From Candidatus Tectimicrobiota bacterium (lineage in GTDB: Bacteria > JACPSX01), in contig JACPSX010000161.1 of assembly GCA_016193065.1 (NCBI GenBank), positions 1 through 23,662 of the forward strand: DNA of 23,662 nucleotides, read 5' to 3'. The notes under the pieces are model-generated. The model worked only from the letters and a program-made list of their open reading frames with translations. It had not been told where the DNA came from and searched no databases. Made by a program: the position numbers and the translations under genes. Shown piece after piece: positions 3,435 through 23,662 of this stretch (positions are counted from its first letter, which is position 1; each line of letters opens with the position of its first letter).

Positions 3435-4388
3435 TTACAACGTTTTGCTGACTTCCGCCAGGCAGCTGAGCGTGCGCCGCATGGAGGCATCGCGTTGGGG
3501 CCCGGCGGTTATCGGCATCGCGATGATCTCCGTGGCACCCCAGGCAAGGAGCTCCCGCAACTTGCCGGCCACCTGCTCCTCCTTACCCATCGCCACCACT
3601 GCGTCCAGCAGGCGGTCGCTCCAGGCGCCTTCCTTCGCCTCGGGATAGCCGGCATCGACGAACATCTGCTGATAGAAGGGCAACTTGGGATAGTAAACCA
3701 TCTGCTCCCTGGCCACGGCGCGGACCTCCCTCAGGTTATCGTGCACGCACACCGGCACATGGGCAACCAGGGGCGGGGTATCCCGCTCGGCCTTTCGCGC
3801 GCCTTCTTTCATTGCAGGCAGCGCCACCTCCCGAAGGTAGTGGCCCGGGCAAACCCAACTGATGGCGCCGTCCGCGTGCTCCCCGCAGAGTTCGAAAGAC
3901 CGACGGCGAAGAGCGGAGGCCATGACCGGAACGTCCCGCACCGGCGCCTCGATCTTGGCGTGAGCATGGTAGTGCTCGCCATCAAAGTCCACGGAGCCTT
4001 CCCGGAGCAGCGTCTTGACGATGGTAAGGTACTCGCGCAGATTGGCCAGCGCTGTCCGGAAGTGAGCGCCGAACATTGTCTCCATGCCGGCCTTGTGGCT
4101 GGGCCCGACGCCGAGCCGGAAGCGGCCAGGCGACAGTTGCGCTACGACCTGAGCCTGCGAGGCCGTGACGATTGGGTGGCGCGGCCAGGTAGGCGTAATG
4201 CACGTCCCCAGGAGAATGCGCTCTGTGCGGGCTGCGGCGGCTGCAAACAAGGTGAGGCCGTCCAGTCCCGCGCCCCCCGTGGTGAGCCACGCTGCAGAAA
4301 CGCCCATGCGTTCCAGCTCCTGAATTCGCGCCACCACCGCCTTGCTGTCGCCGCCCATGGCGGTTACTCCGATCCGCTGCTTTGCCAT
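3435..4388 (-). CDS. LLM-class (luciferase-like) flavin-dependent oxidoreductase
   Basis: The 317-residue protein has the bacterial luciferase-like TIM-barrel signatures: an N-terminal MAKQRIGVTAMGG strand, ERILLGTCITPTWPRHP (typical of F420- or FMN-dependent LLM enzymes), LSPGRFRLGVGPSH, and GEHYHAHAKIEAP followed by VPVMASALRRRSFELCGEHADGAISW. It would carry out flavin/F420-linked hydride transfer or monooxygenation on an unknown substrate. The start at 4388 is preceded by AAGGAGGAG at ideal spacing, so the longer in-frame extension to 4601 is rejected. The gene is divergent from the molybdenum hydroxylase operon, sharing a 227-bp intergenic region. F420 versus FMN use cannot be decided from sequence by eye. 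Confidence 0.87.
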   Translation of the reverse strand: MAKQRIGVTAMGGDSKAVVARIQELERMGVSAAWLTTGGAGLDGLTLFAAAAARTERILLGTCITPTWPRHPIVTASQAQVVAQLSPGRFRLGVGPSHKAGMETMFGAHFRTALANLREYLTIVKTLLREGSVDFDGEHYHAHAKIEAPVRDVPVMASALRRRSFELCGEHADGAISWVCPGHYLREVALPAMKEGARKAERDTPPLVAHVPVCVHDNLREVRAVAREQMVYYPKLPFYQQMFVDAGYPEAKEGAWSDRLLDAVVAMGKEEQVAGKLRELLAWGATEIIAMPITAGPQRDASMRRTLSCLAEVSKTL

Positions 4389-4427
4389 AAACTCCTCCTT
4401 TGAAGCTGTCTCTTCTTGCTTGCATCG

Positions 4428-4456
4428 ATTGTACGGAGTCCGTGCCGATGGCACAA
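4428..4456 (-). promoter_or_regulatory. Promoter of the LLM oxidoreductase gene with overlapping 13-bp inverted repeat
   Basis: Minus-strand TTGTGC (4451-4456) and TACAAT (4428-4433) are spaced 17 nt apart, giving a leader of about 30 nt to the start at 4388. The inverted repeat GTGCC-GAT-GGCAC (4442-4454) covers the -35 hexamer and part of the spacer, which is a classical position for a repressor operator. The elements are seen directly; the regulatory role is inferred, and no regulator gene is present in the window. Confidence 0.55.
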
Positions 4457-4481
4457 GGAGAAAGCGGTGGAACGGCAGTCC

Positions 4482-4510
4482 TTGACGGTCCGCCGGTGGG
4501 ACGGTATAGT
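4482..4510 (+). promoter_or_regulatory. Sigma-70-type promoter of the molybdenum hydroxylase operon
   Basis: TTGACG (4482-4487) is followed after exactly 17 nt by TATAGT (4505-4510). Transcription starting near 4517 would give a leader of about 100 nt before the ATG at 4616. This is one of the best promoter matches in the window. Confidence 0.65.
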
Positions 4511-4517
4511 TAACCGA

Positions 4518-4585
4518 TCTCACCTGGAAACGGCGTGAGGGGGTGAGAGCCGAGACATTGGCCGAGAACAGCTCTGCGCGAGCAG
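4518..4585 (+). promoter_or_regulatory. Structured 5' leader of the molybdenum hydroxylase operon
   Basis: The predicted leader contains a 7-bp stem, TCTCACC (4518-4524) with GGTGAGA (4542-4548). A competing 5-bp stem, CTCAC (4519-4523) with GTGAG (4535-4539), uses the same 5' arm. Further down is CTGC-GCGA-GCAG (4574-4585), a GNRA-capped hairpin. The first gene has no clear Shine-Dalgarno sequence, so the leader may influence translation. I do not recognise a known riboswitch; the pairing is seen, the function is speculative. Confidence 0.3.
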
Positions 4586-4615
4586 ACAAATCCTGGAACA
4601 CTCAAAAAACAGACT

Positions 4616-5578
4616 ATGAACTACCTTAGAGAGCTGCCCAAATTTGAGTACCTGGCGCCCCAAAGCATACCCGAAGTGTGCGAGATGCTGGCCGCGCACG
4701 AAGGCGAAGCCAAGCTCATGGCAGGAGGCACAGACCTCATCATCATGATGCGGCGCCGGGAGGTGGTGCCCCACTACCTGATCGGGCTGAAGAGCGTCCC
4801 CGAGTTGAACTTCATCCGGGAGGAGAAGGACGGCGGGCTCACCATCGGCGCCATGGCCACCTCCTGGGAGATTCAATCCTCGTCGCTCGTACGCCAGCGC
4901 TATGATTTCCTGGCCAAGACCGCCGCCGACATTGGCAGCATCGAGAACCTTCACGTCAGCACCATCGGCGGGAACCTGTGCGACGGTTTTCCTTGCGTTG
5001 ACTTCCCGGCTCCCCTGCTCACCCTGGATGCAAAGGTCAAGCTGGTAAGCCAGAGGGGCGAGCGGATCGTTCCTCTGGACGGTTTTTACCTGGGTTATCA
5101 AAAGACGGCCGTAGAACCGGACGAGCTGCTTACCGAAATTCAAATCCTACCTCACAACCATCGCTACGGGGGTGCGTACATCAAGTTTCACGACCGCCAC
5201 GCGATTGACATCACGACCACCGGGGCCGGTGCCTTCATCACGCTGGACTCCGATGGGCAGACGGCCCGGGATGTAAAGATTGCGCTCACGACAAGTGCCC
5301 CGGTGCCTCTGCGCGTCAAAGGTGCCGAGGCCGCCCTGTGCGGACGGAAGGTCACCGAAGAGGCGACCGAGGAGGCAGGGCGGATTGCCTCAGAGGAAGC
5401 AAGTCCCCGGACCTCGTGGCGATCTACGGCAGAGTTTCGTACCAAGCTCGTGCAGGTGCTCGTGCGGAGAGCCCTGAGGCAGGCCTGGAGAAAAGTCACG
5501 ACTTCGTCTTCTTCGGGTGCGGCGCCCGACCTGTGGCTCATGCATCCCCTAGACCCACGCATAGGAGAGAACCGGTGA
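4616..5578 (+). CDS. FAD-binding (CoxM/CutM-type) subunit of a molybdenum hydroxylase
   Basis: The 320-residue protein is the medium subunit of a xanthine dehydrogenase/CO dehydrogenase-family enzyme and passes electrons between FAD and the Fe-S subunit. It shows the two FAD-binding motifs of the family, AGGTDLIIMM (about residues 37-46) and TIGGNLCDGFPCVDFPAPLL (about 116-135). A C-terminal CO_deh_flav-like domain ends in the RSTAEFRTKLVQVLVRRAL block. It starts at the first ATG downstream of the promoter and leader, with no clear ribosome-binding site. Its stop overlaps the GTG start of the next subunit (GTGA), showing tight coupling. The last 30 residues, rich in Ser and Pro, look like a family-atypical tail. 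Substrate is unknown. Confidence 0.92.
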   Translation: MNYLRELPKFEYLAPQSIPEVCEMLAAHEGEAKLMAGGTDLIIMMRRREVVPHYLIGLKSVPELNFIREEKDGGLTIGAMATSWEIQSSSLVRQRYDFLAKTAADIGSIENLHVSTIGGNLCDGFPCVDFPAPLLTLDAKVKLVSQRGERIVPLDGFYLGYQKTAVEPDELLTEIQILPHNHRYGGAYIKFHDRHAIDITTTGAGAFITLDSDGQTARDVKIALTTSAPVPLRVKGAEAALCGRKVTEEATEEAGRIASEEASPRTSWRSTAEFRTKLVQVLVRRALRQAWRKVTTSSSSGAAPDLWLMHPLDPRIGENR

Positions 5579-20815: not shown

Positions 20816-21532
20816 TTGCCCTCTTTTCTGCCGCGCAGCTTCCAACCTGAGCTCATCGATGGGGAAGAATTTACGAACGAGGAGCTGGTCACCAGCTATC
20901 ACGAGATCGAGTGGGTAAACCGCTTTCTCGGAGGCACCCGAACCCTCACGAGCCATCTCTTTCCCTTATTGTCAGGAAAAAATCCCCCGCTCCAACTTGC
21001 CGACGTCGGATGCGGGAGTGCCGATATCCCGCTGCAGGTGCTGCAGTGGAGCCGAAAGATGGGGATTCCAGTCCGTCTCATCCTGGTGGATCGCAACTTT
21101 CATATCCTGCGCATCGTCAAGGAGCGCTTCGCCGGCTTTGCAGGAGTTCTGGTGGCCCAGGCAGACGCAAACCGACTCCCCTTCAAGCCGGGAAGTATTC
21201 ACATTCTCACGGCTTCCTTGCTGCTCCACCATTTCCCAACGGCTCAGGCCGTACAACTACTGCGCCATTTCCAGGAGATCTCCCGGGAGGCGATTCTCAT
21301 TAACGACCTGATCCGCGGCTGGATCCCTTATCTGAGCATTTCCCTGCTCAGCACTCTCTTTTCCCGCAGCCGTCTCGTCCGGAACGACGCTCCCCTCTCC
21401 GTTCGGCGGGGTTTTTCTCCGGGTGAGGTCCGCGCTCTGGCAGTGGCGGCGGGGGCCACCCGCTGGAAGTTCTCTCGCCACTTCCCCTACCGCTTCTGCC
21501 TCCTCATCGAGTTCGAGGAATCCAGGAAATGA
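20816..21532 (+). CDS. Class I SAM-dependent methyltransferase
   Basis: The 238-residue enzyme has the Rossmann-like SAM-binding motif I LADVGCGSADIPLQVL, motif II VRLILVDRN and motif III around HILTASLLLHHFP. The following SREAILINDLIRG resembles lipid or quinone/polyketide methyltransferases. The TTG at 20816 is chosen as start because GAGGTG lies 8 nt upstream and no ATG/GTG candidate precedes the conserved region. Readings further upstream overlap the MFS gene. It ends in a 4-nt ATGA overlap with the geranylgeranyl-reductase-like gene, so these two proteins are made together and probably act on one pathway. Confidence 0.85.
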   Translation: MPSFLPRSFQPELIDGEEFTNEELVTSYHEIEWVNRFLGGTRTLTSHLFPLLSGKNPPLQLADVGCGSADIPLQVLQWSRKMGIPVRLILVDRNFHILRIVKERFAGFAGVLVAQADANRLPFKPGSIHILTASLLLHHFPTAQAVQLLRHFQEISREAILINDLIRGWIPYLSISLLSTLFSRSRLVRNDAPLSVRRGFSPGEVRALAVAAGATRWKFSRHFPYRFCLLIEFEESRK

Positions 21533-22722
21533 AGCGGGAAGTTCTCGTCGTTGGTGGCGGACCGGCCGGAGCGGCAACTTCGGCTCTGCTGGCTTGCAGA
21601 GGAATACCCGTCACGGTGATCGAAGCCCGGGATTTCCCCCGCTCCAAGCTCTGCGGAGATTTTATAAGCCCCGAGGCAAGAGCCATTCTGGCGGAATTGG
21701 GCCTTCTGGACGCGATCGACCGGGAGGCTTCGAAAATCACCGAGGCCTCCTTTTTTTCCCCGCAGGGAAGACAGGTCCGCATCCCCTTTCCGGAAAGGAG
21801 TCATGGCTTCGGTCTCAGCAGGAGTCGCCTCGACAGCCTCCTCCTGAACAAAGCTGCCGCGTGTGGGGCTGAGGTGCTAACCGGCATCCAGGCAACCGGA
21901 GTTCTCTGGGACCGGGGACGCATTTGCGGCGTTCGGGTACAAAGCTCTCGATCGAGGCAGGATCACACCTTTGAAGCCAGGTATCTCATCGCCGCCGACG
22001 GCCATCATTCTCGATTTCGGCGCTGGACCCGCCCTGACCAATTCCCCGGCAAGGAAGGCGATCTGGCCCTCCAGGCCCATTTCCATGGGGTTGAAGGCAG
22101 CCACGGGAGTGTGGATCTCTTTTTCTACCCGGGGGGCTATGCGGGTTTGGTCCACATCGAGGACGATCTCTGGAACCTCTGTCTACTGGTGCAGGCTAGA
22201 GACTACCTGCCCAGAGGGGCAAACCCGGACACGATTTTTGCCGCCACGGTCCTAAAGAACCCCGTGGCCCGGGAAAGGCTTCTTGGCGCCCGCCGGGTGA
22301 GCCGCTGGCAAGGGATGAGCCACCTGAACTGGGGGGTTTATAGTCCCTCCCGATCCGGTCTCCTCTTTGTGGGAGATGCCGCCGGGACCATTCCCCCATT
22401 CCTAGGAGAAGGAGTCACCATGGCCCTGCGAGGAGGGCAGATCGCGGCTTCAGTGCTGGAGAATACCCTGGGGGTGGGGAGCAAAATAGGCGGAACGTCG
22501 CCGGAATCTATTTACGGTCGAATCTGGAGCCGGGAACTCCGCCGCCCGTACCGGCTTGCCACGCTGTTGTCGTTCGGAACCCGCTCGCCTCTTCTCAGAA
22601 AATTCCTTCTGAGCGGGCTAGCCCGCAGCCCCTCCCTGGCCAGCTTGCTGCTGGCCGCTACCCGTAGCACCGCCTTTCGAGCCCGAGCCCGGCCCGGCCG
22701 GGGACTGCCTCAGATTCCGTAG
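21529..22722 (+). CDS. FAD-dependent oxidoreductase, geranylgeranyl reductase-like
   Basis: The 397-residue flavoprotein starts with the dinucleotide-binding motif VLVVGGGPAGAATSALL and an ExR after the second strand (VIEARDFPRSKLCGDFISPEA, the typical beginning of this family). It has the second FAD motif GLLFVGDAAGTIPPFLGEGV. Relatives reduce isoprenoid chains or oxidise/halogenate aromatic and polyketide substrates. Overlapping ATGA with the methyltransferase implies a small tailoring module. The last 105 nt overlap the convergent peroxiredoxin-like selenoprotein gene. The basic, Arg-rich tail (FRARARPGRG) is probably coded by the shared region. No prenyl or polyketide synthase is in view, so the product is unknown. 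Confidence 0.87.
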   Translation: MKREVLVVGGGPAGAATSALLACRGIPVTVIEARDFPRSKLCGDFISPEARAILAELGLLDAIDREASKITEASFFSPQGRQVRIPFPERSHGFGLSRSRLDSLLLNKAAACGAEVLTGIQATGVLWDRGRICGVRVQSSRSRQDHTFEARYLIAADGHHSRFRRWTRPDQFPGKEGDLALQAHFHGVEGSHGSVDLFFYPGGYAGLVHIEDDLWNLCLLVQARDYLPRGANPDTIFAATVLKNPVARERLLGARRVSRWQGMSHLNWGVYSPSRSGLLFVGDAAGTIPPFLGEGVTMALRGGQIAASVLENTLGVGSKIGGTSPESIYGRIWSRELRRPYRLATLLSFGTRSPLLRKFLLSGLARSPSLASLLLAATRSTAFRARARPGRGLPQIP

Positions 22723-23265
22723 AGCCTGAAGCCAGAAATCCGGGGGTGGGATGTCCCCGGCATGGCTGGAGCGGTATGCCGCGCGGATTACTCCTTGCCG
22801 GTCCACAAGAAAACCACCGGGGAGTTGCCGCACCGGGCCTTCGGGACGGCCCCAGCGAGCCCCAAGGAGAAAAGCCCGAACCCCCTTTCCCCACACAGGG
22901 AGTCCCAGGATTTGCCAGAATCCCCCCAGGGGTAAATGGTAGGCCTGAAACGCTTTCCCTTCCGGGTCGGCCAGGCAAGGAAAGGCCACGGCCTGATCCT
23001 GGCAAAACGCTTCAGTTCTTTGCGGGTCTGCTAAGGATACAGCCACAACCTCTGCACCCAGACGCCGGATTCCCCCGTAGGAAAACCGCAACTCGCCGAG
23101 TTGCCGGCGGCAGAAGATTCAGCCGAAGTGGCGCAGGAAAAGGAGCAGGACAGGGCTTTGTTTCCAAAAAAAGGAAAGGGGGATCACCTCTCCTTCTTTC
23201 CATTGCAGTCTGATATCGGGAGCCTGATCTCCACAACCTGGAGGGTGACCCGGCAGCGGTTTCAT
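22618..23265 (-). CDS. Peroxiredoxin-like (AhpC/TSA_2) selenoprotein (UGA-decoded, U49-x-x-C52)
   Basis: Read through one in-frame TGA (23119-23121), the gene gives 215 residues. The upstream part runs GCGDQAPDIRL, EVIPLSFFWKQSPVLLLF and then LRHFG. The next codon is TGA, followed by IFCRRQLGELRFSYGGI, GAEVVAVSLADPQ, FPCLADPEGKAFQAY and QLPGGFLVDRQGVIRAAYRS. In Prx-like/AhpC-TSA_2 proteins this point is FGCxFC, so TGA replaces the first Cys of the CxxC. An in-frame stop lies five codons before the ATG at 23265, fixing that as the first possible start; AAGAAGGGG precedes it. A strong SECIS-like hairpin follows the UGA. It would probably reduce peroxides or disulfides. The C-terminal 35 residues are Gly/Gln-rich and overlap the convergent flavoprotein gene. 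Standard calling would keep only the part after the TGA. Confidence 0.88.
23086..23107 (-). promoter_or_regulatory. Putative bacterial SECIS element of the peroxiredoxin-like selenoprotein
   Basis: From the base after UGA on the minus strand, GCAACUC (nt 15-21) pairs perfectly with GAGUUGC (nt 25-31) around a three-base apical loop GGC. Below a bulged G, CC (nt 12-13) pairs with GG (nt 32-33), and a G-U pair can extend it. The loop begins 22 nt after the UGA and opens with GG, close to the accepted features of bacterial SECIS elements that SelB recognises. This is the stronger of the two SECIS candidates in the window. Confidence 0.8.
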
Positions 23266-23286: not shown

Positions 23287-23662
23287 TTAGCGAGCCGGAA
23301 AGATCAGTGAGGTTGCTTCCCTGCTGCGGGACTGCTTGAGCTTCTCGACCATTTCCGGCGCAGCAGACTCCACATAACCCAAGAAACCAGTCAGGAAACG
23401 GTTGGAATGGTGATAATCGGGAGAGAAGGCTTTTAAGTTTTCCAGGAGCTTGTCAAGTACCCGCCTCCCCATTTCCAGATCGATGGGTTGCTGGTCGAGA
23501 ATGGCCTTCAAATCTTTCCAGATCTCCTCCCCGGCAGCCAGACCGCTCACGCCGGGGATCGTGACCGGGCTCAGTTGCCTGCGGATCTCCCCCAGAGCGG
23601 ATAGGACCTCCCAGTCCTGTCCGCCCGACCGGCGGGAAAAATGAACATAGAACAGGTTGTCG
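23287..23662 (-). CDS. Unidentified protein, C-terminal part (runs off the window)
   Basis: An open frame continues from beyond the right edge to a stop at 23287, giving at least 124 residues. The visible part begins DNLFYVHFSRRSGGQDWEVL and continues through IRRQLSPVTIPGVSGLAAGE, WKDLKAILDQQPIDLEMGRR, a likely helix VLDKLLENLKAF, and FLTGFLGYVESAAPEMVEKL. It is soluble and mostly helical. I do not recognise the family. A GTG at 23550 could start a shorter product, but the frame is open upstream without interruption. It lies 21 nt upstream of the peroxiredoxin-like selenoprotein and is probably cotranscribed with it. Confidence 0.6.
   Translation of the reverse strand, partial: DNLFYVHFSRRSGGQDWEVLSALGEIRRQLSPVTIPGVSGLAAGEEIWKDLKAILDQQPIDLEMGRRVLDKLLENLKAFSPDYHHSNRFLTGFLGYVESAAPEMVEKLKQSRSREATSLIFPAR

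Follow-up and report, generated by a model that had tools for sequence, protein, structure and literature searches.

An apparent stop codon in a bacterial gene for a thioredoxin-fold redox enzyme is almost certainly read as selenocysteine

A reading frame interrupted by one TGA codon

Is the minus-strand gene near the end of this contig broken by a stop codon, or does the codon in question specify selenocysteine (Sec)? The window analysed here comprises positions 1 to 23,662, which correspond to contig C287 of genome G000. The gene almost certainly encodes an intact redox enzyme of the thioredoxin fold that contains Sec. More specifically, we favour, at a probability of roughly 0.93, a cytosolic, peroxiredoxin (Prx)-like oxidoreductase of the SelL-related/PRXL2 type, in which a UGA is read as Sec by means of a hairpin to give a UxxC motif (Sec49, Cys52). 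What the sequence establishes directly is the frame, the family, the identity of the critical alignment column, the conservation of the hairpin, and the presence of SelB and of two SelD proteins.

The frame extends on the minus strand from position 23265 to 22618, begins with an ATG that is preceded by a purine-rich stretch (AGAAGAAGGGG), and ends with TAG. Exactly as an earlier note on this DNA described, its sole internal stop is a single TGA, which constitutes codon 49 (23121–23119). Reading through this codon yields a product of 215 amino acids, with the sequence ...LLLFLRHFG-U-IFCRRQLGELR... surrounding the site. The translation bears out the proposal that TGA occupies the first Cys position of an FGCxFC motif and that a Cys is retained three residues later. 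This residue, Cys52 (codon at 23110–23112), is invariant in an alignment of 39 sequences and is the putative resolving Cys of UxxC. A gene of this type would be cut in two or missed altogether by standard gene callers.

A pseudogene or a sequencing error could produce the same arrangement if TGC or TGT in a Cys-type SelL-related gene had become TGA, a change that requires only one substitution. However, the TGA is the sole lesion in 216 codons, in agreement with the earlier description of an otherwise undamaged frame, and every residue that is invariant in the family has been retained. Alternatively, the UGA might serve as a true stop, with the downstream part made as a 157-amino-acid protein from an internal TTG start at 23091. 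An ORF with these boundaries (22618–23091) does exist, but its product would be devoid of the N-terminal strands and the entire UxxC active site, and conservation runs across the junction throughout the 39-member family. We consider this second explanation very improbable.

A co-directional ORF lies upstream (23287–23661, minus strand), where it is cut by the contig end; it carries no family match in the profile search. A gap of 21 nt separates the end of this ORF from the start of the selenoprotein gene, and the two might therefore share a transcript. On the opposite strand, the ORF list and profile search place a convergent neighbour of the geranylgeranyl reductase/FAD-binding family (21529–22722, plus strand), whose 3' end runs 105 nt into the sequence for the selenoprotein's C-terminal tail.

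Fold, family and active-site motif

The earlier note had recognized AhpC/TSA-like sequence on both sides of the TGA, and the Pfam AhpC-TSA profile indeed matches residues 12–162 of the read-through protein without interruption at the TGA (70.7 bits, cut-off 26). The protein is also matched by Pfam AhpC-TSA_2 (41.1 bits, cut-off 27) and by NCBIfam NF040769, named “SelL-related redox protein”, at 129.7 bits, which is above the curated cut-off of 120. The latter profile is likewise matched by 39/39 members of the alignment, in which R45, H46, G48, [U/C]49 and C52 are invariant. An AlphaFold2 model generated from this alignment adopts a peroxiredoxin-like fold (mean pLDDT 88.3, pTM 0.81), with residues 190–215, the tail overlapped by the convergent gene, modelled at low confidence. 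The best PDB match of the model is 9usa (E 1.3e-10, TMt 0.81), a C44S/C47S mutant of the CxxC-spaced active site of human prostamide/prostaglandin F synthase, followed by AhpE and Bcp peroxiredoxins.

When the protein is aligned to AhpE with phmmer, Cys52 pairs with the classical peroxidatic Cys and Sec49 pairs with the Thr of TxxC. The motif is therefore UxxC, of the SelL/PRXL2 or the thioredoxin type, rather than the TxxU of Sec-peroxiredoxins, and ‘peroxiredoxin’ in this case names a fold and not a proven activity. The proposal of a peroxiredoxin-like selenoprotein stands with regard to Sec and fold, and the AhpE alignment refines it to a SelL-related/PRXL2-like UxxC protein. Two more specific assignments were rejected. 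SelL proper is defined by UxxU, whereas codon 52 of the window gene is TGC and the motif is UxxC. A classical TxxC/TxxU peroxiredoxin carries a T(S)xxC/U site, which is absent from RHFGUIFC, where Sec occupies the Thr column.

The bacterial, mostly CxxC, NF040769 family has the RHFGCxFC motif in common with the window protein, along with a similar length and fold, but in the window gene the motif carries Sec in place of its first Cys, a replacement shared by at least 14 further close genes (E<=1e-10). SelL is likewise Prx-like and has its Sec within a short redox motif (PMC2397514, PMC3316567, PMC2398784), and resembles the window protein in both respects. However, SelL, from fishes, sea squirts and marine bacteria, has two nearby Sec residues (UxxU, diselenide), and animal SelL uses a SECIS in its 3' UTR, whereas the putative SECIS of the window gene is located inside the coding sequence. 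Human prostamide/prostaglandin F synthase, of the PRXL2 family (9usa, 9us9), has a similar fold and a CxxC-spaced redox pair (C44/C47), but is a Cys enzyme with a eukaryotic substrate and 19% identity. Two listed selenoprotein families are also relevant (PMC9312934, PMC13188914, PMC2398784). Both the prokaryotic Prx-like thiol:disulfide oxidoreductases with UxxC or UxxU (pfam00578) and the AhpC/TSA_2 selenoprotein with UxxS (pfam13911) carry Sec at the same motif position. Finally, the Sec-peroxiredoxin (TxxU) belongs to the same fold superfamily, but there Sec replaces the peroxidatic Cys.

SelL (UxxU), Prx-like UxxC/UxxU and AhpC/TSA_2 UxxS selenoproteins are known, and the window gene is a solid addition to this known kind, as a UxxC member of the SelL-related family. 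The selenoprotein reviews consulted nowhere give NF040769 as a UxxC selenoprotein, but some members may be filed under ‘Prx-like’ UxxC; the table of a 2026 review holds no NF040769/SelL entry, and its AhpC/TSA_2-type entry is UxxS. The SelL-related family gains a Sec form with UxxC, and a bacterial Sec enzyme is linked to a human family, PRXL2, whose structure has been solved.

Sec or Cys at column 49, and a hairpin that accompanies Sec

Homologues were sought in 145 diverse genomes, in one phylum of 18 genomes and in a GTDB contig set, and the matches were re-read by tblastn. Counting the window gene, 21 genes combine TGA at column 49 with Cys at column 52. The Cys homologues to which the earlier note had looked for support are also present, with TGC or TGT at this column in 98 genes. 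Fourteen of the 20 other UGA homologues are close (E<=1e-10). UGA genes are found in the phylum of genome G137, where 8/18 genomes carry the close form, in Chloroflexota, where each of three Anaerolineales-like records has an adjacent Cys paralogue, and in several other lineages. In the Anaerolineales-type genomes of loci L052, L054 and L057, a Sec copy of the SelL-related gene lies next to a Cys copy.

The same searches recovered no close relative by which a sequencing error or purifying selection could be assessed. The relatives found are labelled as sharing only the domain with the window lineage, which appears to have no relative from its family, order, class or phylum among the genomes searched. 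A maximum-likelihood tree places the window protein beside the all-Sec clade of the G137 phylum, which is a different phylum, although the fork uniting them is weakly supported (84/75). The Sec and Cys labels on this tree require 3 changes, compared with a mean of 11 when shuffled. The genes neighbouring the UGA relatives form no common operon, except for a glycosyltransferase in two related genomes.

The earlier note had also called attention to a perfect 7-bp stem with a GGC loop beginning 22 nt after the UGA, and both position and pairing were confirmed. On the minus strand, GCAACTC (23104–23098) pairs with GAGTTGC (23094–23088), such that the putative SECIS hairpin (23088–23104) starts 14 nt past the UGA and its loop follows after 21 nt. 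Published constraints for bacterial SECIS (bSECIS) elements specify a loop of 3–9 nt with G within its first two positions, a stem of 4–16 bp, a spacing of 16–37 nt and an MFE <= -7.5 (PMC13188914). The window hairpin has a 3-nt loop starting with GG, a 7-bp stem, a spacing of 21 nt and an MFE of -9.3 kcal/mol, and hence falls within the published limits. Its occurrence exceeds chance. The two strands of the window together contain 627 TGA triplets, of which this is the only one with a 7-bp Watson-Crick stem and a 3-nt G loop at this offset; a 7-bp hairpin of this kind anywhere within the allowed range follows 7 of them. When the same peptide is recoded with synonymous codons according to window codon usage, 7/7 Watson-Crick pairs arise in 2.4% of sequences.

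The stability of the hairpin is unexceptional (z of -1.4 to -1.8), and 11% of synonymous recodings fold equally well. Because the folding energy alone is unremarkable, the argument for a SECIS is borne by conservation. At least 6 of the 7 pairs are present in 18/21 UGA genes versus 6/98 Cys genes. This enrichment corresponds to a Fisher p of 2e-10 among close homologues and 2e-5 when matched at GC>=0.57, both values being optimistic given the relatedness of the sequences. In relatives the element takes forms such as GCAGCTG-GCG-CAGTTGC, wherein the closing pair has changed from C-G to G-C through alterations on both sides. The covariation score over 18 UGA genes is higher than in any of the 500 shuffles or any slid version.

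Two neighbouring peroxiredoxin-like genes at 221 and 1639 of locus L031 (genome G038) are both UGA (UxxC) genes, and they share the hairpin GCARCTC-GGT-GAGTTGC. The distant UGA match L049 is without a stem at the equivalent position. In several relatives the stronger hairpin is a different one, whose AGUU loop follows the UGA by 25 nt; it was set aside because it does not form in the window. Rfam matches at the locus were at chance level only.

These findings also bear on the possibility of a pseudogene or sequencing error, in that 20 other genes from several lineages have TGA at the same column, and a SECIS-like hairpin is located at the exact offset seen in UGA genes and is mostly missing from Cys genes. 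We regard such an origin as very unlikely. The chances are about even that the SelL-related UxxC form represents a subfamily of bacterial selenoproteins that is widespread yet uncatalogued, that has a conserved SECIS of its own and repeated Sec/Cys exchange, including the tandem Anaerolineales copies, and that is present here in a lineage without same-phylum relatives among the genomes searched. The approximately 21 UGA and 98 Cys genes permit a direct comparison at the SECIS position, and offer a usable test case for the gain and loss of SECIS elements alongside Cys/Sec exchange.

Selenium machinery of the genome

The assembly is a draft of 2.9 Mb in 294 contigs that is 86% complete. It encodes one full-length SelB, on contig C175 (370.6 bits over its cut-off), and two different SelD proteins over cut-off, each of which is itself a selenoprotein whose catalytic residue is encoded by UGA (TVRCAG-U-AGK and LSHGAG-U-GCK). 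As located by profile matches, one selD lies on the plus strand of C175 (8301–9455) and the other on the minus strand of C120 (about 3960–4886). The expectation that the genome should hold sel genes was thus realized for selB and selD, but searches of the 86%-complete draft yielded neither selA nor tRNA-Sec (selC). The reading of UGA as a Sec codon is supported by Cys homologues, by the 20 UGA homologues, by a UGA-specific hairpin, and by selB with two selD genes.

The two missing genes, in what is a single draft genome, are points in favour of the pseudogene or error judged very unlikely above. A PF03841 match was rejected as SelA (14 bits, E 0.02, below cut-off), and the 260 nt upstream of selB contain no recognisable SelA end. 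Matches to RF01852 in this genome were rejected as tRNA-Sec, those typed by ARAGORN being tRNA-Trp, -Ser and -Leu. A strict tRNA-Sec pattern search of the genome gave one unconvincing match, and a loose one gave no excess over a reversed-pattern control. Identical searches in relatives that carry the UGA gene recovered tRNA-Sec in 6/6 tested (73–75 bits, ARAGORN-confirmed) and selA above cut-off in 8/11 (about 440–610 bits). In genomes G137, G139, G154, G158 and G159, selA is located 0.02–1.1 kb upstream of selB. Given that selB resides ~0.26 kb from a contig end, where relatives keep selA, this gene was most simply lost at the break. A break of this kind is a plausible reason for the lack of selA, and the absence of tRNA-Sec would need a separate gap.

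The presence of several in-frame TGAs in the genome might suggest that, instead of directing Sec insertion, TGA has been reassigned genome-wide to an amino acid such as Trp, Gly or Cys. However, TGA terminates 3/15 window ORFs as well as the selD on C175, and the code is therefore not globally reassigned. Moreover, the in-frame TGAs examined, in SelD and in UxxC proteins, occupy redox or catalytic positions of the Sec type, and SelB is present at full length. We consider reassignment exceedingly improbable.

For the preferred reading, a UxxC selenoprotein, we infer actual Sec insertion, a catalytic cycle and a type of substrate along the following lines. SelB carrying Sec-tRNA-Sec would bind the hairpin in the coding sequence and deliver Sec at UGA codon 49. 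The Sec49 selenolate would then attack a disulfide or peroxide substrate, Cys52 would resolve the intermediate as a selenenylsulfide, and a thioredoxin-type donor would presumably reduce this bond.

Between selB and the first selD on C175 (4970–8288, plus strand) lies a PhnD/PhnC/PhnE/PhnE-like ABC transporter, whose binding-protein frame seems broken near 5458. The N-terminal part of this binding protein resembles the putative selenate-binding TIGR04553, below cut-off, and by its sequence the transporter is possibly a selenium uptake system. A second UxxC selenoprotein gene of the AhpC/TSA type, with the motif FYMIHT-U-DSC and an N-terminal membrane anchor, is located on contig C145 (3099–4481, minus strand). 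This gene ends in a TGA stop and is followed by a PEMT/ICMT-type methyltransferase gene.
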